Below, one piece after another: positions 49,027-64,000 of a stretch of 64,000 nucleotides of DNA (positions are counted from its first letter, which is position 1; every line of letters starts with the position of its first letter). The notes beneath the pieces were generated by a model, which made no database searches, was not told the DNA's origin, and saw only the letters and a list, made by a program, of their open reading frames with translations. This DNA comes from Hypoxylon rubiginosum (Eukaryota > Ascomycota > Sordariomycetes > Xylariales > Hypoxylaceae), in the NCBI GenBank assembly GCA_902806565.1, contig CADCXA010000034.1, positions 930,001 through 994,000 of the forward strand, given 5' to 3'. The translations under genes and the position numbers were made by a program.

Positions 49027-50714
49027 ATGGCCAACTCCGAAACCCCCGAGCCCGTCGCGGCCGTTGCCCCTGAGGCTGCCGCGTCCCCAAGGCCAGCGGC
49101 AGAGACTACAGCCGAGGCGAGTACGTCGGCCGGAGTGCCGGGCGCGACGGAAGCTCCGATTGAGGCTGCTCCTGTAGAAGTAAGGATACTACCTCATACC
49201 TCATAGCCAAGCCCTTTGATGCGAGCCTCGACAAGGCTGTAGTGTATCTACTGACTGACAATTCATCCGTACTTAAAGGAGGGCGATAACGATTTCAACG
49301 ACGCAGACTCTGCTCTGGGAGAAGGCGATAAGTATGAGATGCCGTTCCTAATCAGAATACCGTGCTGAAACTAGCATGGCAATCCGCGTACCATAGAGAC
49401 ATAGGCAACTCTAACAAGATGTGATAGTGCGAGCTCGACAGCATCCCTTACTGAAAGTATCCTAGAGTACCGTACGCTTAATGGTCGTACATATCACAGC
49501 GAGAGGCACGGGTCAGAAGGTAAATACTGGGGACCAAATGACGAGCGACAAAATGAAGCCATGGACATGAAGTAAGCCCTGCGCCAAACCGCCCGTGTTA
49601 TTCGCTTTCTAATGTTTTTGAAGCCACCATTTCTTGACTCTCTGTCTTGGTGGCAAGCTTTTCCTGGCCCCCCTGAAAGACGATATAGAAGTAGGCATTC
49701 GCACCAATCTACTCAGAAGCGGACCTAAAACTGATGTTCCCTAGAAAGTGCTCGATATTGGTACTGGAACAGGTGATTTCACTCTCCTTGATAACCAATA
49801 TTTACAATCAGTGCTAATCAACCTTAACAGGTTTATGGGTAATGTAACTAAACCTGCTTACACCCTGATGCATGTATAAGACTGACATATATATAGCGAC
49901 ATGGCGGATGAGTATCCCAACTGCGTGGTCATTGGGACGGATCTATCGCCGATCCAGCCGTCGTGGTGCCCACCTAACGTGAAGTTCGAAATCGATGATC
50001 TGGAACAGCCGTGGACATACGCACCCAACAGTTTCGACTACATCCACATTCGTTATATGGTCGGCGGAGTGTCGGACTGGAATAAGCTATTCAGACAGGC
50101 TTACGGGGCTCTCAAACCCGGCGGGTGGATCGAGAGTTTCGAAGTCGAGGCCGACTACCGCAGCGATGACAATACTATTCCTCCCAACTCTGCCATGCAC
50201 ATATGGCAAGACTTGTTCACCGAAGGAGGAAAGAAGTTGGGCCGTCCATTCACTATCCTCACCGAAGATACACAGAGGAAGGGTATCGAGGCTGCCGGCT
50301 TTGTGGATATCACAGTTAAAGACATCAAGGTGAGTCATATGATATCTTGCGTCGAATGCACTCGGAAGCTGCCGAGTCTTCTAAGACATGCTCATCATTC
50401 TTACACTGTCGTAGGTACCAATGGGCTCTTGGCCAGCCGATTCGAGATTAAAAGAGATTGGCCAATGGGCTCAGTATACCCTTGAGCAAGACCTCGAAGG
50501 TGAGCAACCAGTATATTAACGAGACATTATTACCCACGCAGTAGCTAAATGTGATCAAGGTTTCGTCATGTTCATGTGGAATACGGTTCTTGGACGTTCG
50601 CTGGAGGAAATGCAGGTTTTCCTCGCGGGCTACCGGCGAGAACTGCGTACTAGGTCGATTCATGCCTATCTTCCACAGCGCGTGGTGTATGCACGAAAGC
50701 CGGAAACGGCTTAG
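49027..50714 (+). CDS. LaeA-like SAM-dependent methyltransferase
   Basis: Nine exons join in phase: 49027..49179, 49279..49331, 49428..49571, 49624..49690, 49745..49772, 49831..49843, 49897..50329, 50415..50499, 50560..50714, giving 376 residues. An Ala/Pro/Glu-rich N-terminus leads to [19 protein letters not shown], typical of this fungal family, then [19 protein letters not shown] (SAM-binding motif I), [18 protein letters not shown] and FDYIHIRYM, and LKPGGWIE. The end, [19 protein letters not shown], is also conserved. LaeA is a regulator of secondary metabolism, but most relatives in a genome have unknown substrates. It is about 4 kb from the mycosporine cluster, separated by unrelated genes, so a role there is not implied. 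The 13-nt sixth exon lies in the SAM motif. Confidence 0.85.
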
Positions 50715-52232: not shown

Positions 52233-54238
52233 CTATCTTTTATACCTCCACTCCATATATCGCTCGCAACCCGAATGGCCAGACGATAACAACATGAGGA
52301 ATTCTTCCCTGGCCCCCCTTTGATGGGGTTTCTTCTTAAGCCTAAGCGGCCACGGATCGATGATGGTGTGCTGTCTCTTGAACTCCATTCCCGACAGCTC
52401 GGTGAGCATGGCGAAATTCTGAAGCTTCATGTACCTAAGTTCTCTGTTAGAAGAAACATGATCTGACGGATTGAAACTGCGACTTCTATATATACGAACC
52501 TGTCGAAATACTTGTCGACGTCTCGCACTTACTGCGTTGCGATGTCGCTGACGATGAGGTTGGCATCATAGGATCCCGTCGGTCGCTGTGGCGGCATGTA
52601 ACTCCATACCTGTTTCATCTCGGACTCTATTGCCTTGCGTTTCTCGCCGTCGTCGTATATCTCGTCTACCGCGTTGAGGAATAGAGCGACAAGAGTGGCA
52701 TTCGGATTCTCATTGGGATGCTTGAGTAGACGACCGATGTACCCGATGGTGCGTGGCATCCCTAGGTAGCCGGCGTCAGATATATTGGACACCTGGAATT
52801 AAAAATTAGATGCGATGCTCGAATCTGGACAATCGCTTGGCACATACCTCTATGCGGTCAAATGCGGCTGGTTTGACATAGTCATAAAGGTCCTCTGCGT
52901 TGACGTTCAGCAGATGAAACGAAATGTTCAAAGTGTCCAGGCGGCGATGAAAGCGAGTTAGCAGATCTTTCAGGAGGACGATGAGTTTTCCGTAGATGTC
53001 GTTGGTGGCGGTGCCCGACGAGACACCTAAGATCTCGGACATCTGCCAGCCGTGGAGAGGATCCGCATCGTCTTTCATGGGCCAAGAATCGGTGTTGCGA
53101 AAAAGAGTGCTAATGAGCCAAGTCAGATATAAAGCAGTGGAATCGGTATCGACGTTGAAGACTCACGGATTCGGGATCGTAAAGGAAGCTCGAGATGTAC
53201 CGAACGGGAGAAGTACTCCGTCTTCTCTGAACTTCTGCGCGCTAGCGCGATGACCGGGAGACTGGGCAAAGTATTTTCGTTCTCTGAAATCTAGCCTTTG
53301 ATCGGCTAACGTGATGTTCCGACGAATTTCTCGCGCCCTTTCGACCGTAAGGTCAGGAGGTGGTTCTAGACTTGAGAGAATATTAAACCATTGCTCCTTG
53401 GTCAGGACGAGACGAAGGGACCGTGAACCGAACGTCCACGTCTTCGCTAAAATTGCGTCGGACGATTTGCCCTCTATCTTACTACAGATTCCTTGCACCA
53501 GCTCATAGATCTTCCCCTTTAGCACGTCCTGGAGAGATTGCGGGATGAAGGCCGAGTACCACAGGTGAATGATGTTTTCCGTCGCCACGACGGCGTCGTC
53601 TTCCGTCAGCACGAGAAGCAGCATGATAACGTTTCTACCCACAATATCACCATCCCGGTCATTCATGTAAATCTTCAAAGGGTTTCGAAAGGCATCGGGA
53701 ATGGAAATGACGGTCTTGATAACATTTCGAATGTCCCCGGAAGCTTAGAAGCAGACTCGTTAGTCTTACAGACGTAAAATCAACACTAAGAAGACTCACC
53801 CGCAAACAGAAGATCAAGTCCTTTGGTGTATTGGACGCCCTCGTTCGAAGAAAGATTAACCAAGTCGAAGGCAGGGACATTTCCCCATGGGTACTTCCGC
53901 TGGTGATTGAAGGCCTGAAGACGAGGACCGCCCATGAATGCCGGCACGCGACTCTCGGTTTCCCACCGCGGTCGCCATTTTACTTTCAGCAACGGATTGT
54001 CTCGGCAGTCGGATTTGTGTGCCTTCCAGTGAGCTTTCTGGCAGTCGCTACTGCAATACTGCTCGATTAGTCAGAACACATCTTCCACAAACGGGACTCG
54101 GCGAGAACTGAAGCTAGAATAGCTTACCAGAACCAAGAGACACTCTTTGCATGCGAGCTTTCCTGCTCGAGTGCATTTGGAATTGTCCTGGCTCCAGTTG
54201 GCGCATATGAAATCGAGGTTTGGGTTGGTTGCGGCCAT
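52233..54238 (-). CDS. MYND-type zinc-finger protein
   Basis: Six exons (54238..54128, 54058..53800, 53743..53167, 53109..52848, 52792..52533, 52434..52233) join in phase to about 556 residues. The N-terminal MYND finger is split by the first intron: ICANWSQDNSKC, then GKLACKECLLVL, then YCSSDCQKAHWKAHKSDC. MYND fingers bind proline-rich partners. The rest is helical with no motif I recognise: RKYPWGNVPAFDLVNLSSNEG follows the finger, then a long middle part and a basic C-terminal end. Fungal genomes carry several such MYND-plus-unknown proteins. The exon 2 acceptor could lie 3 bases earlier (CAG or GAG), which changes one residue. Confidence 0.8.
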
Positions 54239-54566
54239 ATTGCGTTTGCATGGAAAATACCTACCAACACTAGATCAATAGTAGGTTTAGGATAGTATCA
54301 AGCAACGAAGACTCATATATGACAGAAGTGGAATCTCGTTAGGCAGCAAGCCGATATAGACTACGGGGGATTGGCTGAAGGCGGCACAATGCAGATGTCG
54401 TGAAACGGTGCAGTCTGACAACCGTCCTCTCTCTTGACAAAGAAGAGTAGGCTCAATATCTTTGGTTCTATTATATCATTCGTGAAATACTTGATACTTA
54501 AGATATTGAGCCATGGTTTCAACCTCCATAGCGGTGACTTCGTGGAGTAATTGGAGTCGTCTTTTA
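54239..54566. other. intergenic, no gene seen
   Basis: Short spacer between the MYND gene start and the 3' end of the NRPS-like gene; it must hold the MYND promoter. Confidence 0.4.
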
Positions 54567-57500
54567 TCATCGCTGCTGTTTGGCCCAGCCCAACCGCCAA
54601 TTATCCAAACACTTCTGCAAGACTCCGTTTTGGATGACATCGAATCCCTGTCTTATGGTCTCGGAGTGTTTCGCAGTTGTTATGGTCTCGAATACGAGAC
54701 TGTTCCGTCCATCCACGTCGCTACAGTACTTTCCCACGTAGAAGTCCAGCAATTTGACGGTGGGGTTCTTCTCAGGATCTTGTTCGCCTTCGCGTAATCG
54801 CTGTACCCATTCACGGGGAGTGACAGCATCAAATTTGAGACCTGCTGTCCTCAGTGCAGGAAGTAAGTCATTACTCCAGGAGAAGGTGGTTGGGTTCAGC
54901 AGATGATAGACGTCTTCGTAGCTTTCCGAAAGTTTTCCCTTGGCACTTGGAGCCAATCCGGACAGCTCAAGGACTGATGAAGCGCATCTGTCTACAGGCA
55001 ACCATGAAGGAGTCTACGATGTTGCATGTCAGTAGATTTCGAAATGACCACGCGGCGTAGACTTACCTCATCAAGCATGGGGAGCGCCCCTATTGTAGTC
55101 GCGCTCTGAATCATCAACGGGATTGCCTCAGTGGAGTTCCAGAGGCCATTCTCTACGTCGCCCATCAATTGCCCAGTGCGTAGGACCCGCGCATAAATAC
55201 CAGTGCTCTTTGCTGCCGCGCGGATGATATGCTCTGTCACGAGTTTCGATCTCGCGTACCCCGTGTTAGGAGCATGATGCAGATCCTCGATATAGACTTC
55301 TCTTATAGTGGCTGGCATAGGAGTTCCAGAAGCGGCGGAAATTGAGGAGATGAAGAAAAGCTTCGCCGGCGCCTGGAAAGGAACGCTTAAACACAACTTG
55401 ATTATGTTGTGCACACCCGCGATATGCGACCGCTCGAAGCTGCTGAGGCTCGCATTGAAATTCACCATCCATGCACTGTGAATAACAGTAGTGACGGTCG
55501 ATTGGAGCGTCTTAAATGTTAATGGATTAAGACCTAAAGATTCTTGACTGAAATCGCTAGGGAGACAGATGACCTTCGCTGCGACAGCGGGGTGGAATAT
55601 CCTACGAGACTTGAGACTCGATACGACGCGGGACTGGGCTTCCTCTGCTGTAATTGCTCGAACTAAACAGTAGACCGTCTTTACTGTCGGTAATGACACT
55701 ACTTGCGACAGGACATGCGCTCCAAGTGACCCTGTCGTCCCAGTCAGGAGCTAAAGACAACTGGTCAGCCGGCGTCTACTGAAAATAGTTCATGAAGGTG
55801 AACAGTGAACATACTACAACTTCACCTTCTGGCTGCCGGTCACCTGGAATGAACTTTGGGAAATTTGAATATTTCGAAATTAGCTTGGACATCAAAGCCG
55901 CGTCGTTCCAGGGGCTAGAGAGATCACCACCTTTGCGTATTCTAATCAGATTCTCAACCAAGAAACTAGCATTGCCGTTATCATATATAATGCTCACGGG
56001 TAACTTGGGAGCTCCAGTGAGCAGGACCCTAGACTCGATGAGCTTTCTTACTTGAACACAAGCGATTGAATCCACCCCCTGCTGGAAGAAATCTTGGTGA
56101 GGGTCAATGTCGCGGCCGAGAACTTGACTGAACAATTCGAGTACTACGGAATAAAGACCTTTATCTGAAATATCATGTGCGCTTTCATGAGGAATTGTTT
56201 TCCCGGCATATGCTTCATGAATGATATCGGCGTATCGAGCCTCAGCTTGGTGTCTTAGGGTGGTTCCCTTGCTACTCTTTGCGAGAGGCTCTTCGTCTTC
56301 TTCTGGATCAATGACAATCAACATCGACCTTGCTAGTCGGGAATGGCTTGGCGTTTCCGCATTTAATTTCCCTATTTGTGGCCAGATAGCATTAACAACT
56401 TCATGATCTGAAGTGTTATTTGAAGTCTTGAAGAGTAAAGCCCCGGCGTAGTCCTCGCCAGCACCAAAGACAAGAACATCTCTTATCAATCGGGTCGATG
56501 CTTTGATGGCTTCCTCAAGAGGCGAAGGGTCGAACTTTTTGCCATTGGCTAGAGTAATCTGAGCATCTGCCCGGCTATGGTATCTCCATGCATTCGGTAT
56601 CGACGGGTGTGGTTCAAATAAATCCGCCGTCGCATATGAACCATCGTCGCGATTGGTCTTTGATATCAAAGGCCAGCCGGACTTGACCAGGAGCTCCGAT
56701 AATCCGTCCCCTCGTGGTTCGAATGATAAGAACTTGGAATCCACGATAGGCCGAAGATATTGCCATTCCTTGTCTTTGGCATAATCACGATGTGAGGACA
56801 TGAGAAACCCACACTCTGAACTGCCCATCCGTGAAACCAAGCTGACCCCTAGATCAATCAATTTGTCGCCGACGGAGGGCGCTAAAGCAGCACCGCCGAC
56901 GCCAACTAACTCCATACTTTGGAGAATGCGAATGCCTTCACGCTCGTCGGCTAGCAGCTGGAGTACAGAAGGGACGGACGAAAAGTACTTCACTGGGGCT
57001 GAGCTCCGGTTACGGGCATAAACTATCGAGCGGACAATATTGCTGCCTGTAATCGGTACGACACCTTCTGGGAAGAACCATATCATGGCCTCACTGGTCC
57101 ATGCTCGTAAACAGTCCGCGAGACCACCGTGGTATAGAGGTGTGGTTGAGAAGGTGGCAGCAGTTTGATCTGTATGCGGGAAGGACGGCAAACACCCCGT
57201 AGCTCCCCACTGGGTCTGCACAATCTGTTTTGGTAGCCCGGACGATGTGCCAGAAGTATGCCGTAGATAGGCTATATCAGAAGCCTCTCTTGAACTTTCG
57301 ACGTATTCATTCTGGCCGGCGTCGTAGTCGCTCCGAAAAGAAGGTATCTCAACTGTACGAATTGACTCCGGCAGTTGTAGGCCTTTATGTCTCTGAATCC
57401 CATCAACAAGGATTATTCTCATATCAGAAACCTCACAGAGGTGCTGTATGGCTCGAGAGTCCAGTTGCGGACTTCAAGTTACAATAAGCTTGTGACAACC

Positions 57501-57961
57501 ATGAAGGTTAAGAAAACTGAAGGGTCCTTACGCAATAATAAATGTCTCGCATCCTATGCGCATTAACCCCAGCCACGTCAAAATAAAATTGAGACTGCTG
57601 GTACACATCAGACCAACTGTGGGCGACTCGCCGTCCTTGACTAAGTGGTGTAGAGTATCTGCTATGACTACGGCTGCATGCTTTGACAATTCGCGGAGTT
57701 CTGAAAATGTGACCTGATCGGGTGCTAGGCGATATTAGTAACAGCATGCTGTAAAGGGGTAAAATACATACGCCACTGAGAGGGATCCCTTGACGTGAAA
57801 TCAGCGAATCCTAGAGCAGGTCGGTCCGGTAGGTGACTTGCTTGCTCTTCAATAAGTGTAAGGACCGTCCCGAAGGCATTTTGAGCACCATCATCTTGCT
57901 CTTTTAATTGTGCTGCTTGCCCTAAAGTGCAGGTGAAATAGTTCAAGCCACGAGTCGCCAT
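54567..57961 (-). CDS. NRPS-like A-T-R carboxylate reductase of the mycosporine cluster
   Basis: Five exons, 57961..57772, 57724..57532, 57471..55815, 55750..55067 and 55013..54567, join in phase to 1056 residues. The adenylation domain (about 1-560) has HTSGTSSGLPK at 199-209, PLYHGGLAD, GSSECG at 344-349, TADLFE and NGKKFDPSP near 433. The thiolation domain has FFQQGVDSIACVQ with Ser596 for the phosphopantetheine arm. The C-terminal part (681-1056) is a thioester reductase: LLTGTTGSLGAHVL for NADPH and catalytic YARSK (Tyr845, Lys849). There is no condensation domain, so the enzyme should activate a carboxylic acid and release it as aldehyde or alcohol. It is co-directional with the ATP-grasp and DDGS genes, which suggests it acts on the amino-acid part of a mycosporine. 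The substrate code cannot be read safely. The ATG at 57961 has a good context; an earlier in-frame ATG also exists. Confidence 0.88.
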
Positions 57962-58607
57962 GGGATACCGAGCAGGGCATTTACGTGTTAATGAAGTCGT
58001 ATTTGGTATCGCAATGAAGTATGAAAAAGCAAGTTGGACAGGAGGTGTTGTCTTCCCCCCTAACAAGAAATTCATGAGGTCATTGACCTGACACGCCACA
58101 TTCCATGTTGGCCATGCAGACAGTAAACTTAGCAGCCGTAAAACTTACATAACTGCGTAGTCTAGTAATTCCGTAGGGCTAGATAAAGTTGATAATAGAC
58201 ATATGATCGAATGTACGAAGGTCGCTTCCAAAGGGGTTTTCCATATGTAGGGAAAACGGCCCTTGCTAGCTAAAAAAGGGGCTTATCACCTGTACAGCAC
58301 TGGCGAAAAGAGTGCGCTATAATTACAAGAGCTAGCGGGCAAGATACGCTATAAATATTTAGTGGACTATTGTGCTGTAATATTTCTATTTTATAAGGAG
58401 CTTAGTGGGTATACTACGCTATAATTATAGAGGAGTTAGTAGATAGGGGTCCTAATCGCGGCTTCACAGCTGAAAAAGCCCCCTATGGAAAAAACCGACC
58501 TCCGTACTGAACACTTATAGCTCATAATATATACTAATAAGTCATCAACTCTAAGATAGGAAAGGCGGAATCAGCAATTTAATGTTATTATTCTATATAG
58601 CCTATAT
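57962..58607. repeat. intergenic repeat relic with GCTATAATTA words
   Basis: The spacer between the A-T-R and ATP-grasp genes holds several TACGCTATAA-like words between about 58310 and 58435. These are flanked by loosely inverted pieces GGTTTTCCATATGTAGGG and CCCCCTATGGAAAAAACC. It resembles a small degraded inverted-repeat element. The words GGAGCTTAGTGGGTATAC recall the inner part of the arms at 1683 and 23921. Promoter of the A-T-R gene must lie in the left part. Confidence 0.45.
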
Positions 58608-60149
58608 TTAACATGTGAACATTTTCGTCGTGCTAACGTTAATCCTACTCCATTGCTGTTTTTTCCACCAAGCCGACAAAATCATCATCGGCCAAACAAC
58701 ATGGTATAAACAAAACGCTGGGAATGGATCCCAGACTTCGAAGGTGCCTTCTTTCCAAAAGAGGAGGTGTCTCGAAAATTCAAGAGCCGTCGCTGTAAAA
58801 TGGCGAAATCCAATCAACCCCTGGCCCCATTTCAACGCAGGGTGCAGAAACAAAGAGACCAAATCATGTCCTATCCAATATCGAGGCCGAGAATCTTTAG
58901 GCGGCGTTACCAAAAAGCCCTTTAATAGACCTGTCGATCCAATTCCATCGACATGCGTACCTACCATTCCCTTGCCATCTAACTGAAGTGCGGAGAGGTA
59001 AGCACGCACCATAGCTTCCATCTCCGGGCCGTGCCGCGCGAACAGCACCACCGCCGTGTGGGCGCGAGGATTGCACTCGATGGCGTAAATATTCTTCGCG
59101 AAGCCGTTCTGGCTGGGGGTGCCCTCGCTGGCCATGAAGTCGAAGCTGAGGTGGCCGGTCATCGCCTCCGGCCGCGGCGCGTTCTGGACGAACTCCATGG
59201 TGAAGGCCAGCATCGACTTCCACAGGGCCGAGTCGTGCGGCAGCGCCTCGTAGCGCATCAGGAGCTCGGCGCTCGGGCAGGCCACGAAGCACTTCACCTC
59301 CCCGCGCACGACGAGGGCGTGCGTGCAGTATTCCTCGCCGCCGGGGATGAACTGCTGGAGGATCCAGGGGCTGGACTTGGTGATGGGTAGTTGGGATACG
59401 TGGTCCTTGGTCTTCGCGTCCGAAGGGAGGGGCAGCAAAGTCATGTCTCCCCGGTTGCGGTCGTCCATTCCAACGGGCTTCAAGATGAATTTCCGTCTCG
59501 ATCTGGCTTTCGACAGGACGCGAAGGACGTCGCGCTGGGACTTGACCTCATGCGTTTCGGGGACCGGAAGTCCCAGCCTTTTACATTCATCCGTGAATGA
59601 ACTTTTCTCGTGCAACGTGGAGGTAGTTCGGACGTCGAATTGGATGCATTTGCACTTTGTATCCTGTTCTATGATCTCTTTCGCCTGAGCGTCTTCCACG
59701 GCGCTAGCTACTCCAGAGCATGCGACCCAAAGATCGGCTTTCTCAGCATTGATGATTTGAGTGAGGCATTCGATATACAATTTCCTGCCCTCGTCGGTAT
59801 TCGGTTCTGGTAGGCGATAGAAGGCCGACAAACTTCTCGAGAACCGACCTGAGCAGAGGGCATTATGTGTTTCAAAATCAGCGCCGATGACGTGGTGACC
59901 CGAGAGGTAGAACGAACGAGCCAAGTTTAGCCCTTTGGCCATCCCTACCCCTGTGACGAGAATAGTTCGCCGGGTGGCTTCGTTTGGTTCTTCATCCTTA
60001 GGTCGTGAACGCGGTTGAAGATGAGGAACAATTTTCAGCACCAACAGACAGACACACACTACCAAACTTGAGACCGGTAGAAGGATAAGGCTAAGAAATA
60101 TCAAGCTGAAACATCGCACGGTGTCTTCCCAGGGTGGCTCAGCCATCAT
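58608..60149 (-). CDS. mysC: MysC-like ATP-grasp ligase with N-terminal membrane segments
   Basis: A single exon encodes 513 residues. After RRTILVTGVGMAKGLNLARS (residues 60-79) and HHVIGADFE it follows the ATP-grasp plan: RKFILKPVGMDD (nucleotide Lys), WILQQFIPGGEEY, the acidic strand GHLSFDF, and IYAIECNPRAH (358-360 ECN, metal site). This order matches MysC, which in cyanobacteria uses ATP to couple an amino acid to 4-deoxygadusol. Position beside a DDGS gene supports it strongly. Unlike the soluble bacterial protein, residues about 11-43 are hydrophobic (SLIFLSLILLPVSSLVV and VCVCLLVLKIV) and the C-terminal end (FCLYHVVWPMMILSAWW) is also hydrophobic, so it may be membrane-associated. 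The start at 60149 has a second ATG directly after it. Which amino compound is used cannot be told. Confidence 0.85.
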   Translation of the reverse strand: MMAEPPWEDTVRCFSLIFLSLILLPVSSLVVCVCLLVLKIVPHLQPRSRPKDEEPNEATRRTILVTGVGMAKGLNLARSFYLSGHHVIGADFETHNALCSGRFSRSLSAFYRLPEPNTDEGRKLYIECLTQIINAEKADLWVACSGVASAVEDAQAKEIIEQDTKCKCIQFDVRTTSTLHEKSSFTDECKRLGLPVPETHEVKSQRDVLRVLSKARSRRKFILKPVGMDDRNRGDMTLLPLPSDAKTKDHVSQLPITKSSPWILQQFIPGGEEYCTHALVVRGEVKCFVACPSAELLMRYEALPHDSALWKSMLAFTMEFVQNAPRPEAMTGHLSFDFMASEGTPSQNGFAKNIYAIECNPRAHTAVVLFARHGPEMEAMVRAYLSALQLDGKGMVGTHVDGIGSTGLLKGFLVTPPKDSRPRYWIGHDLVSLFLHPALKWGQGLIGFRHFTATALEFSRHLLFWKEGTFEVWDPFPAFCLYHVVWPMMILSAWWKKQQWSRINVSTTKMFTC

Positions 60150-60912
60150 CTCCGATTCAAATATCTATTCAAGACTAATGCAATGAAACGATTGCCGTAG
60201 ATGGTACTAAGGGAAATAACGGATAATCAACCTCTCCTACAATTATCTCATCTGAAGTTGGGTTTGATGGAAGACGTAATAATGATATGGGAACCGGCGA
60301 CGAACTAATATTCAGAGTTCATACCGACATATGTCATAGACCAAGATCCATACGTGCAAGAATGGACAGGCAATCCGTACGACATATCCGTCTAGCCCCT
60401 TTTACCAAAAATGATATGCTGCATGCGACTACCCAGGTGGCCTGTATGCTTTGTTCAACTTGTAGGACGTCACTACTCTGAATGGAGTCAGGGGTAAAAT
60501 GATATGAGCCGTTCAGGCGGGTTTTCATCATCTACAGGTTCATTTCAGCATAAAATCTGTTTATAATATGGGTCTTGCCTCGATGGTGTACTGGAATGTA
60601 CTTTGTACATAAGAGGCATTCCTATTAGCACTATCTCCGAAATGTAAAAAGGGGGGAGGGGATTAGTGCAGTTACAACTACATAGAGGCGAATAATCATT
60701 GCTCTCACTCAGTATCTCGTCTAGCGGTCTCTTAATAAAAACTATAATACTATGATAAAAGTTTATAATTGCATGTTCTTATTCTATGCTATGCAAAGGT
60801 CCTAACTACACCCTCCGGGACTTGAACGTAGGAGGAACGCTAACTACTAGATACAAAATATTGTAAACAGTTGCTTAGATGTAGCTCGAATAACAAGTCG
60901 AAATCGTCCATT
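60150..60912. other. intergenic within the cluster
   Basis: No exon is supported. It must contain the promoter of the ATP-grasp gene and the 3' end of the DDGS gene. Confidence 0.45.
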
Positions 60913-62810
60913 TCAAGCTTGGGCTTTAATCCCACTAGGTGGTCCGTTTACAGGATTCTCTGGTAAATCTAGAGTGTATTCGGTGTGGCCATCAGCAGTG
61001 GCGTTAACGCCGAGTAGGTTGCCGTGTCCGTTGACGCGCCCATTCATTCCAAAGGCATCATTTATGCCATTAACAATGGTCTCGCTTGCAGGCAATACTA
61101 GGTGCAGATAACAAGGTTAGTAACTTTCGTATTTCGTCTAAAGTCAGCGACCAAGAGCTAAAGCACTCCATGAGTGAAAAGGGGGGGAGGGGGGGTTAGC
61201 AAAAATTGACTTAGGTTTACTTACCACCAGCTTGCTTGGCAGCATTCTCCACGCTGAGATTTTCCGTCTCGAGATCCGTATAGCCAGTGTCGCTGCTATC
61301 AACATATGCCTCGATACCAGCACCCTCCCGAGGATAGGACTTGGCCATTTCTTTATGTTTCTTCAAGGCATCTTTCAGCTGCTGCGGAGATACATTGTTC
61401 AGGAAAGTGCATGATCCTAAGGGGCTTGGTATGGCGAGGCGAAGCTGTCCATCGCGTGTCTTCAAAATAGCTGCAGTGCCCTTATCCAAGACCTCGTCGT
61501 CAAATTGTGGATGGTCAATCGAGAGCCCGGCTCTAGAGAGCAGGTTGAACAGCCGACGATGTTCCTTACTTGAAAGTAACCCACTTTCCTTAGCCAAGGT
61601 AGCAGAGTAGGCCATGTCGATAGAGATAGCATGTCCGTGGCGCAATGGCGTCTCTGGAATAAGCTCATGCATGGGAGACCACCTGTGATGATTTTATGTT
61701 AACCAGAGTGGAATGAGCTGACTGGCAGCGCAGTGAACTTACGTATGGCCTAATTATATGTTAGCTAGCTCAACCCTGAGGTACGTAGAGAACAATTTCA
61801 AGTACTAACCATATGCGATTACTCTGTCAAGGCCAATCTCGTGGAGATTTGGTGATTCTAGCTTTAGCATTTCGTAGATACCTTCGCGATTGATCTGGAG
61901 ATATATCAGCCCTTCAGCGCTGGCTAAAGCCTGAGTGCGAGTAAACCTACAACGTCGGCTGCCTTGCGGATTTCGTTGCTCGATCCATCGGCTCGGCCGA
62001 ACCTTGTGTCGATGAGCTGTTCGCAAAACTTGTCCAGAAGATCGAACACGTGCAGGTGGGAGCAAGACGAGATCTTGATCAACTCGGCAAAACCGTTCCG
62101 TACTTGGGCGATTGGTAGTGTGCGAAGGAACGTAAAATCGAGGAACGTATGCACGGGAGCATGATATGCGCCTAGGCGGTTCTTGTATCGACCGTAGTTG
62201 ACCGCAACTTTAATACTGACGCTGGCATCTATCAGGCCGATCACGGTCGTTGGCACTCGAATGAAGTTGGTGTTGCGGCGATAGGCGGCGCACGCGAACC
62301 CGGCTACATCTGTGACGAGTCCTCCTCCTATAACAAGGACGGGTTCCTGTAGAATGAGTGATGAATATTAGGTACGTATCTTACAGTAATTTGATTTTAG
62401 AAGAGACATACCTTTCGAATGATTCCAAACTCAGTCATGCTGTCAGCTATTGCGAGGAACGTTTCAATCGTTTTGGCCTTTTCTCCAATCGACGTTTGGT
62501 GAACCTTCATTTTTAAATTGTAATGGTTGAAGTACTTTTCGATCTTTGCGCCGTAGAGCCCTATGCTGAAGTTAAGCTATACCCCTTTTCTATTTCTTCG
62601 AGTGCGTTACTAGGTAAGGCGGTACTTACGAAATACGTTCTTGTCTGTGACAGCCAGGACACGGCCCCAAGTCTTATAGCAGTCCGCGAGATTCGGGTTG
62701 GCAATATCGAAGACGCCATCGACGAATGTGAAGTCATATTCAATCTTCTCATAGCCCTCGACGTGGAAACCGTGTTTGGTCTCTTGGACATTCGCTTTGA
62801 GATCAGACAT
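60913..62810 (-). CDS. mysA: 2-demethyl-4-deoxygadusol synthase (sugar-phosphate cyclase)
   Basis: Seven exons, 62810..62630, 62560..62412, 62346..61951, 61894..61810, 61749..61743, 61682..61225 and 61097..60913, join in exact phase to 486 residues. The start [20 protein letters not shown] and the block [14 protein letters not shown] are characteristic of the DDGS/EVS branch of the dehydroquinate-synthase fold. NAD-binding [18 protein letters not shown] is at about 117-134. Metal ligands are Glu198 (AELIK), His272 (GHTWSP) and His288 or His290 (RHGHAISID). The enzyme turns sedoheptulose 7-phosphate into demethyl-4-deoxygadusol, the first step to mycosporines. The last 60-70 residues, rich in Asn and Gly, extend beyond the bacterial length. 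The seven-base fifth exon carries the whole His272 codon. It lies head to head with the O-methyltransferase. Confidence 0.93.
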
Positions 62811-63746
62811 TCTGAGATAAAGATCTTAGAAAAATAGCTAAATGGACTGCTTGATCTGCAAATTTAAGATATAGGTAAAGCTGCGAAGAAGCGAAGGTTC
62901 TAACGTACAGCTACCCTCTGGATACGACGCGAAACTTCAAGGTTCAAGTACTTATGTGAGTGACTGTCATAATTTGATCTTCTACTCGTCATTCACTTTG
63001 ATTCCAGACCCTTGAATGCATTGTTTCGCGTTAGCAGCATCCATTTCCGTCATAGTTGACACTGTATTTTCTACTTCACAGGGGGCTTTTTCAGAGTCGC
63101 AATGTTCATGTAACGACGAGGCCACATAAAAATAAGCTTCGTGCGGTCCCTGATCTACACGCGGGCAAATCTTGCGCTAGTTAATATTGGGAATGAGCAG
63201 ATCTCGTTATTATAAAATAACGGGGAGTATATATTGATCAATGACTTGTTGATTGTGCAATTTCATAGGTGGTTGGAGAGTCCCCTTTGTTCCGAGACTT
63301 CGTCGAAAACTACCCGGAACCTAAGGAAATAGAAGAATCATAGATCCCCGACATAGATCCCAGACATAGATCCTAGACATAGCAAGATATACCAAAAGGA
63401 ACCACTGTCCACTCAATCGAATCTGACGAATCTAATCTGATACTATTGAGCACGTTTTCGTTCTTGGTTCCGCGTTAGTGGCATGCCACTGCACCTGTCA
63501 AACCTAAGGCACCTAATTATCCTGTAGTTAACCCCTTAACCGGAAAAAAATCAATGACTTCAAGACTCGAACAAAGTCATGTAGTTGGAATGACACGTAA
63601 CATTCTTAGAAATTATTCTCGTAGCATTGCTAAGCGAAGACTTCTCACTTTGGCGCCCTACCCCATGAAGCCGATGCTGCTAGTTCTAAATTGATAGTAT
63701 ATTTTGCAAAGTGTTATTTCGACGCGAAGACGCCAACAGCCATACA
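62811..63746. promoter_or_regulatory. bidirectional promoter region between DDGS and O-methyltransferase
   Basis: 936 bases separate the divergent starts, so both promoters must lie here. There is no coding frame. A TATA-like stretch TATATATTGATC-type sequence occurs near 63228. The words GGGGGCTTTTTCAG (63081) also occur inverted at 58470. No known regulator site can be assigned. Confidence 0.5.
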
Positions 63747-64000
63747 ATGGGCGAACTCGAGAAAGTCTCATTTAAGGGGGAGGCATACAGGCCACAAGAG
63801 GAAACATACGTCAGTGCGCCGGGGACTCGAATTTGCACGCGCTGACGGACTACCTCTCATATAGTTCGATGATGGAAGGGAGATAGAACTACTCCATTTT
63901 GTATATGGCCATCCACGATTTGAGGAGATGCGAGGAAACCCCCAAAGAGTCCTGGACGCTATTGACGAGTATGGGAGGACTCGAAGATACCTCAGTATGT
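63747..64000 (+). CDS. mysB: MysB-like O-methyltransferase, 5' part (runs off window)
   Basis: Exon 1 is 63747..63809 (MGELEKVSFKGEAYRPQEET and a Tyr codon). A 55-base intron, 63810..63864, has a GTCAGT donor, a GCTGAC branch point and an ATATAG acceptor. Exon 2 runs to the window end in frame and encodes FDDGREIELLHFVYGHPRF, then EEMRGNPQRVLDAIDEYGR and TRRYLSM. This matches the N-terminal cap of the class I SAM O-methyltransferases that methylate demethyl-4-deoxygadusol (MysB group); the SAM-binding motif would lie just past the edge and is not visible. Its divergent start next to the DDGS gene supports the call. Without splicing the frame stops after 32 codons. Confidence 0.7.

Follow-up and report, generated by a model that had tools for sequence, protein, structure and literature searches.

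Four genes of a mycosporine locus

The 48.3-Mb genome of the ascomycete Hypoxylon rubiginosum carries, on contig CADCXA010000034.1, a compact mycosporine cluster of four intact genes, mycosporines being sunscreen compounds. The stretch analysed, positions 930,001-994,000 of that contig (64,000 nucleotides; hereafter the window, whose numbering is used throughout), holds on its minus strand, between 54567 and 62810, the genes for a 2-desmethyl-4-deoxygadusol synthase of MysA type (DDGS), an ATP-grasp ligase of MysC/ATPG type and a nonribosomal peptide synthetase (NRPS)-like carboxylate reductase with adenylation, thiolation and reductase domains (A-T-R). A gene for an O-methyltransferase (OMT) in the MysB role runs divergently from these on the plus strand. 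A preliminary description of this DNA had named the same four co-located genes, and gene models, Pfam matches and homology all bear it out. The models were built by hand with GT-AG introns, which were placed by splice sites, open frames and homology, and the open reading frame is complete in each.

The DDGS gene (60913-62810, minus strand) comprises seven exons (62630-62810, 62412-62560, 61951-62346, 61810-61894, 61743-61749, 61225-61682 and 60913-61097) and encodes 486 amino acids. Its product has a Pfam DHQ_synthase match and, among the 16 solved chains listed, matches 5tpr at 488 bits over residues 3-399 and 4p53 at 231 bits, with the remaining 14 at 119 bits or less. The PDB labels 5tpr a 3-dehydroquinate synthase (DHQS); we take it to be a cyanobacterial DDGS. 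In the homologue search it matched a protein of Hypoxylon rubiginosum at 99% identity, and its identity to the DDGS of a cyanobacterial locus (L009) is 56%. In addition, it carries, as a matching stretch of 30 residues, the region that distinguishes DDGS from DHQS by the criterion of PMC10057719 (cited, like the other papers named here, from the passages available). The only other DHQ_synthase match in the genome lies within a 1571-aa open frame, read as an AROM protein. Judged by homology, the product of 60913-62810 is thus a DDGS rather than a DHQS. A broken gene was considered and rejected, since the frameshift came from one intron choice and a 56-nt GT-AG intron yields a normal frame; the 7-nt exon (61743-61749) is required to restore the GHTWSP motif.

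The ligase gene (58608-60149, minus strand) is a single exon encoding 513 amino acids. Its product has no Pfam match, and it scores 196 bits against NCBIfam PRK06849, which is under the cut-off of 406. A BLAST comparison with locus L009 aligned it at 30% identity over 459 amino acids (E 3e-61) with the second open reading frame (ORF) behind the cyanobacterial DDGS. An ATP-grasp fold is predicted for an 82%-identical homologue, P0122 (mean pLDDT 83), whose model matches ATP-grasp enzymes with a best E of 1.2e-12; over the 50 rows shown, the TM-scores on the query are 0.38-0.48. Homology and the predicted fold together support the assignment of this protein as an ATP-grasp ligase, and it is the single match of its kind in a search of this genome. 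Four relatives (P0129, P0140, P0185 and P0224) are publicly named “carbamoylphosphate synthase large subunit” or “catechol O-methyltransferase”; these names look wrong.

The OMT gene, which the preliminary description had met as a partial frame at the window edge, completes to 264 amino acids on the same contig. Its five plus-strand exons (63747-63809, 63865-63994, 64066-64464, 64520-64680 and 64741-64782) span 63747-64782, of which 63747-64000 lies inside the window, and the final 782 bases of the coding sequence were taken from the contig beyond it. An intergenic region of 936 bp (62811-63746) separates the gene from DDGS. Methyltransf_3 (40.8 bits) and Methyltransf_24 (42.1 bits) both exceed their cut-offs, and position together with family suggests the role of a MysB-type methyltransferase. 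The OMT gave no significant BLAST match to the L009 ORF that separates DDGS from ligase, a weak comparison given that the frame of that ORF, which is methyltransferase-like by eye, looks interrupted.

The fourth gene, A-T-R (54567-57961, minus strand), is modelled with five exons (57772-57961, 57532-57724, 55815-57471, 55067-55750 and 54567-55013) encoding 1056 amino acids, and Pfam places AMP-binding at residues 38-359, AMP-binding_C_3 at 430-551, PP-binding at 570-629 and NAD_binding_4 at 682-921. The preliminary description held that this member ends in a thioester reductase, and this is upheld by the NAD_binding_4 match, by a score of 193.9 bits against TIGR01746 (under the curated cut-off of 213.35) and by an R domain that is nearest to that of the Neurospora crassa carboxylate reductase, 8aep (181 bits with the family profile). 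Likewise, a model of an 80%-identical homologue, P0001 (mean pLDDT 79, pTM 0.60), superposes on 8aep with a TM-score of 0.85 on the target. Pfam reported no condensation or thioesterase domain in A-T-R and, at E 0.01, no thioesterase or D-Ala-D-Ala-ligase family in any of the four cluster proteins, in keeping with the earlier view that the fourth gene is unlike the A-T-thioesterase or MysD of cyanobacteria.

The core motifs of the A, T and R domains are kept. In all 44 homologues that share a contig with mycosporine genes (see below), the A5 Glu-Cys, the A7 Asp, the A8 Arg and Asp, the A10 Lys, the carrier Ser, GxxGxxG and YxxxK are unchanged, and the A3 Lys is conserved in 43 of them. By sequence and model, the product of 54567-57961 is consistent throughout with the domain and motif content of a fungal A-T-R carboxylate reductase. 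Its A4 motif, YHGGLAD(C/A), has no Asp at the place that one occupies in alpha-amino-acid A domains, the position having been matched by motif to what we take as the PheA/DhbE numbering and not by structure. At the level of the motif, we read it as suiting the activation of a carboxylate rather than of an amino acid. An attempt to derive the substrate from specificity positions was abandoned; six A-domain positions, two of them (245 and 246) in A4, split the linked proteins from those of Fusarium, and other Hypocreales proteins blur the split.

Two observations attach to this part of the locus. Among the best 120 A-T-R homologues listed there is no row from H. rubiginosum itself, the best being an 80%-identical protein of H. 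cercidicola; the frame is open in this genome, and the absent row is perhaps due to a missing or odd gene model. Moreover, part of a dispersed repeat lies at 58214-58510, in the gap that separates the ligase and A-T-R coding sequences, with 23 other matches in the genome, some of which are pieces of one copy.

Linkage of A-T-R to mycosporine genes

Homologue searches were made for A-T-R, ligase and DDGS, with 809, 1711 and 3222 proteins passing, respectively, from about 8000 scored candidates each, and the best 120 clusters at 90% identity were examined for each enzyme; the counts below refer to these listed matches. Two clusters were taken to share a contig when the longest contig of each had exactly the same length, a method that demonstrates co-location on a contig, not distance, and that misses pairs whose cluster representatives differ. 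By this measure, 44 of the 120 A-T-R clusters share a contig with ligase and/or DDGS (34 with ligase, 37 with DDGS and 27 with both). Fifteen of the 44 linked contigs are shorter than 0.6 Mb, the shortest being 36,872 bases. The remaining 76 A-T-R rows comprise 46 from Fusarium and 30 others. Ligase and DDGS rows themselves fall on a shared contig in 45 cases, 18 of which have no A-T-R row among the best 120.

Locus tags bring the genes closer together. For example, DDGS, ligase and A-T-R correspond to PFICI_12759, 12761 and 12763 in Pestalotiopsis fici and to PG985_009726, 009727 and 009729 in Apiospora marii, while A-T-R and ligase are PpBr36_09129 and 09130 in Pyricularia pennisetigena. In Xylaria curta, NUW58_g783 is an A-T-R model fused to the ligase and NUW58_g784 is DDGS. 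Including NUW58_g783, five entries (P0003, P0004, P0013, P0020 and P0102) run from ligase into A-T-R in the order and on the strand seen in H. rubiginosum. True fusion proteins were rejected, since the alignments end before the ligase C terminus and begin inside the A-T-R N terminus, which fits gene-calling artefacts; these five models were therefore used as evidence of adjacency only.

Within the H. rubiginosum genome, some 20 loci have A-T-R-like or R-like matches (grouped from 31 matches), and the chance that one of them falls no more than 5 kb from a chosen position is about 0.004, a figure in which conservation elsewhere is not counted. A chance neighbourhood is ruled out by the linkage in other genomes. 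Shared contigs, near locus tags and ligase-A-T-R gene models together argue that the linkage is not accidental, and the linkage is retained even where the A-T-R protein has 41% identity to that of H. rubiginosum. The gene was proposed as a pathway member in the preliminary description, and on these grounds it very probably belongs to the mycosporine pathway.

A FastTree tree of 121 A-T-R proteins, including the H. rubiginosum protein, was rooted at its midpoint, a root that is not secure. Linked proteins occur on both sides of it. On the Hypoxylon/Xylaria side, 33 of 41 tips are linked (the H. rubiginosum protein being one of the 41); on the other, a group that contains Apiospora, Pestalotiopsis, Microdochium and Pyricularia has 11 linked tips among its 16. 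No linked member occurs among the other 64 tips, which by name are largely Hypocreales and include the 46 Fusarium rows. This distribution supports A-T-R as a conserved fourth member in many Xylariales-type genomes and in several other Sordariomycetes. A simple history, subject to the insecure root, would place the linkage early in the Sordariomycetes with loss in the Hypocreales.

A putative role in side-chain reduction

Described mycosporine systems offer several points of comparison. The MYC cluster of Phaffia rhodozyma encodes a DDGS, an OMT and an ATP-grasp ligase of similar size (477, 284 and 500 amino acids, respectively), and its DDGS and OMT genes are divergent, as in H. rubiginosum (PMC10057719). 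It differs in that its ligase lies on the OMT strand, rather than on the DDGS strand, and in that it has three genes and no fourth, whereas in H. rubiginosum A-T-R follows the ligase. Thus, the description “three core genes, no further peptide-type enzyme” given in PMC10057719 does not fit H. rubiginosum, where a conserved A-T-R is present. The cyanobacterial clusters for mycosporine-like amino acids, of which the one locus L009 was compared, resemble the fungal cluster in DDGS (56% identity) and ligase (30%) and differ in the fourth gene, which is there an NRPS (A-T-thioesterase) or MysD in place of an A-T-R with a thioester reductase. For mycosporine in Aspergillus, a review tabulates three genes of A. 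clavatus and two of A. nidulans (PMC10384724). Colletotrichum, a producer of mycosporine-alanine, was considered as a control and set aside, since it is reported to have no mycosporine cluster in a survey of genomes (PMC4974774).

Closer to H. rubiginosum, a survey covering 13 species of Hypoxylaceae and a single Xylaria found mycosporine cluster homologues in most Hypoxylaceae genomes and marked two “myc” clades in its NRPS/NRPS-like network (PMC8403587). These “myc” gene cluster families, from the same fungal family, are probably the same clusters in relatives, although the passages available give no gene names, layout or role for A-T-R. The earlier suggestion that such an enzyme is undescribed in mycosporine clusters therefore holds only in part: the passages available assign the gene no role, yet the families had already been counted as NRPS or NRPS-like (PMC8403587). 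Among the titles and abstract openings that searches of an open-access library gave, none assigned an A-T-R to mycosporine synthesis. An A-T-R enzyme of Pestalotiopsis fici, PnlA, is the subject of PMC9605436; if PnlA were PFICI_12763, the novelty could be altered. The reductase domain of a fungal carboxylate reductase is the subject of PMC10168641. Such carboxylate reductases, including that of N. crassa (8aep), share domain order and motifs with the H. rubiginosum A-T-R, which differs in adjoining mycosporine genes. The fungal mycosporine clusters described in the passages available have three genes, and the reaction put forward here for an A-T-R as fourth gene is a reasoned proposal.

Amino-alcohol side chains are a known feature of fungal mycosporines, and the Phaffia and A. 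clavatus clusters, as far as the available passages describe them, have no gene for that reduction (PMC10057719, PMC10384724). The Phaffia ligase is described as taking up glutaminol, the origin of which is not stated in the passages available (PMC10057719). A linked carboxylate reductase is a candidate gene for the amino-alcohol step and, if this is true, would open a way to make reduced mycosporines in engineered yeast. Mycosporine-glutamine is tabulated for fungi beside glutaminol, glutamicol and serinol forms (PMC10384724), which makes it the economical reading that A-T-R makes the amino alcohol. Mycosporine glutaminol and glutamicol are also present in a green-algal lichen (PMC6471344). 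On balance, A-T-R probably, though by no means certainly, yields the amino-alcohol side chain of fungal mycosporines, with the reduction taking place either before or after ligation.

By homology to the Phaffia and cyanobacterial steps, DDGS would cyclise sedoheptulose 7-phosphate, methylation of its product by the OMT would give 4-deoxygadusol, and the ATP-grasp ligase would couple the ring with either an amino acid or an amino alcohol. A-T-R would adenylate a carboxylate, load it on the carrier domain and release it by NADPH reduction, giving a side chain of glutaminol, glutamicol or serinol type. As A-T-R has no second reductase found next to it, either its R domain would have to carry out both reductions or the aldehyde would have to be reduced by an unlinked enzyme.

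Reduction after ligation, from mycosporine-amino acid to mycosporine-amino alcohol, is slightly preferred to an order in which the free amino acid is reduced. The preference derives from the listing of both mycosporine-glutamine and the glutaminol form for fungi and from an A4 motif without the amino-binding Asp, and neither point is strong. A fuller form of the proposal, which we regard as tentative, is that in Sordariomycetes a dedicated A-T-R reduces the finished mycosporine-amino acid, its nitrogen being held in a vinylogous amide, and that presence or absence of the gene sets whether amino-alcohol or amino-acid mycosporines are made.

Several observations weigh against a role of A-T-R in making the amino alcohol. 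First, the three Phaffia genes expressed in Saccharomyces cerevisiae gave a peak reported as mycosporine-glutaminol, assigned by retention time and co-migration in high-performance liquid chromatography (PMC10057719). If this is correct, yeast supplies the amino alcohol or the reduction, and A-T-R is not strictly needed; given the retention-based assignment, it is conceivable that the peak is mycosporine-glutamine. Second, none of the 46 Fusarium A-T-R rows shares a contig with a ligase or DDGS row, and no row named Fusarium occurs among the best 120 DDGS or the best 120 ligase rows, some of which are unnamed. These NRPS11-type proteins of Fusarium are 45-50% identical to the H. rubiginosum A-T-R and have the same A4 motif core, differing in their want of a DDGS or ligase contig match and in the zinc-cluster or Pyr_redox_2 stretches behind A-T-R in some models: P0049 and P0076 continue into a Pyr_redox_2 protein (P0076 also into a zinc-cluster domain; Pfam), and P0047 and P0056 continue by eye into a similar stretch. 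These models point to a separate cluster or neighbourhood for the Fusarium gene, and the lack of mycosporine linkage together with other gene neighbours implies that the enzyme is used outside the mycosporine pathway. Third, the A4 core, with Asp247, is common to all 90 linked and Fusarium proteins, so the pocket alone is no pointer to a mycosporine substrate. Fourth, two lichen fungi (P0221 and P0223) have ligase models that continue into a DUF3112 protein. The preliminary description had looked to DDGS-ligase pairs with no A-T-R neighbour as evidence against its proposal; such a pair exists in Phaffia, with its three genes, and the DUF3112 protein is a possible different neighbour in these lichen fungi, whereas many Xylariales-type and several other Sordariomycete genomes keep A-T-R. 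Finally, no metabolite or expression data for H. rubiginosum turned up, no dedicated search having been made.

Alternatively, A-T-R might reduce free glutamine, glutamate or serine before ligation, leaving the ligase to join the amino alcohol to 4-deoxygadusol. This timing, which would still make A-T-R the source of the amino alcohol, seems rather unlikely. It agrees with the incorporation of glutaminol that is ascribed to the Phaffia ligase (PMC10057719). The invariant Asp247 could hold the amino group, and the Fusarium relatives without linked mycosporine genes would fit a general amino-acid substrate; the A4 motif, by contrast, lacks the usual alpha-amino-binding Asp, again judged at the level of the motif. 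Free amino aldehydes are unstable, and the route would therefore need a full four-electron reduction, a demand that counts against it.

It is less probable still that A-T-R makes a separate product and is merely a conserved neighbour of the mycosporine genes. The presence of the same family in other neighbourhoods in Fusarium and the dispersed repeat between A-T-R and ligase in H. rubiginosum would accord with this, but the linkage persists down to 41% identity and on both sides of the tree, and no secondary-metabolite core enzyme was found in the 18 ORFs scanned of the 29 of at least 130 amino acids between 24 and 54 kb, nine of the 18 having no Pfam match and spliced genes possibly escaping such a scan. 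Least probable is that A-T-R, like an NRPS in some cyanobacteria, couples another building block to the ring, so that reductive release would yield a disubstituted or imine product. Although it occupies the fourth place held there by NRPS or MysD (PMC10057719), it has no reported condensation or thioesterase domain, and fungal mycosporines are described as oxo-type in the available part of a review (PMC10384724). Among these possibilities, formation of the amino-alcohol side chain by A-T-R, with reduction after ligation, is the reading preferred here.

Surroundings of the cluster

The next gene past the cluster, at 53163-54250, has a DUF4470 match in one ORF; upstream of that ORF, a Cys/His stretch resembling a zinc finger was read by eye. 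A Methyltransf_23-type methyltransferase at 49886-50482, some 4 kb from A-T-R, is LaeA-like by eye only. A larger secondary-metabolite cluster was considered and rejected on the scan of the same 18 ORFs, whose Pfam matches comprise an alpha/beta hydrolase, Pex2/Pex12, EXS, Glyco_transf_15 (in two ORFs), cytochrome b5, a methyltransferase, DUF4470 and, below cut-off, HET.

The contig ends about 16 kb from the cluster, and neither the window nor the remainder of the contig contains tandem TTAGGG or CCCTAA. The genes between about 24 and 64 kb form an island of about 45-60% G+C, flanked by blocks of about 7-12% G+C (one at about 2001-24000, the other beginning near 66001 and reaching the end of the contig) that look like mutated repeats of the kind left by repeat-induced point mutation.

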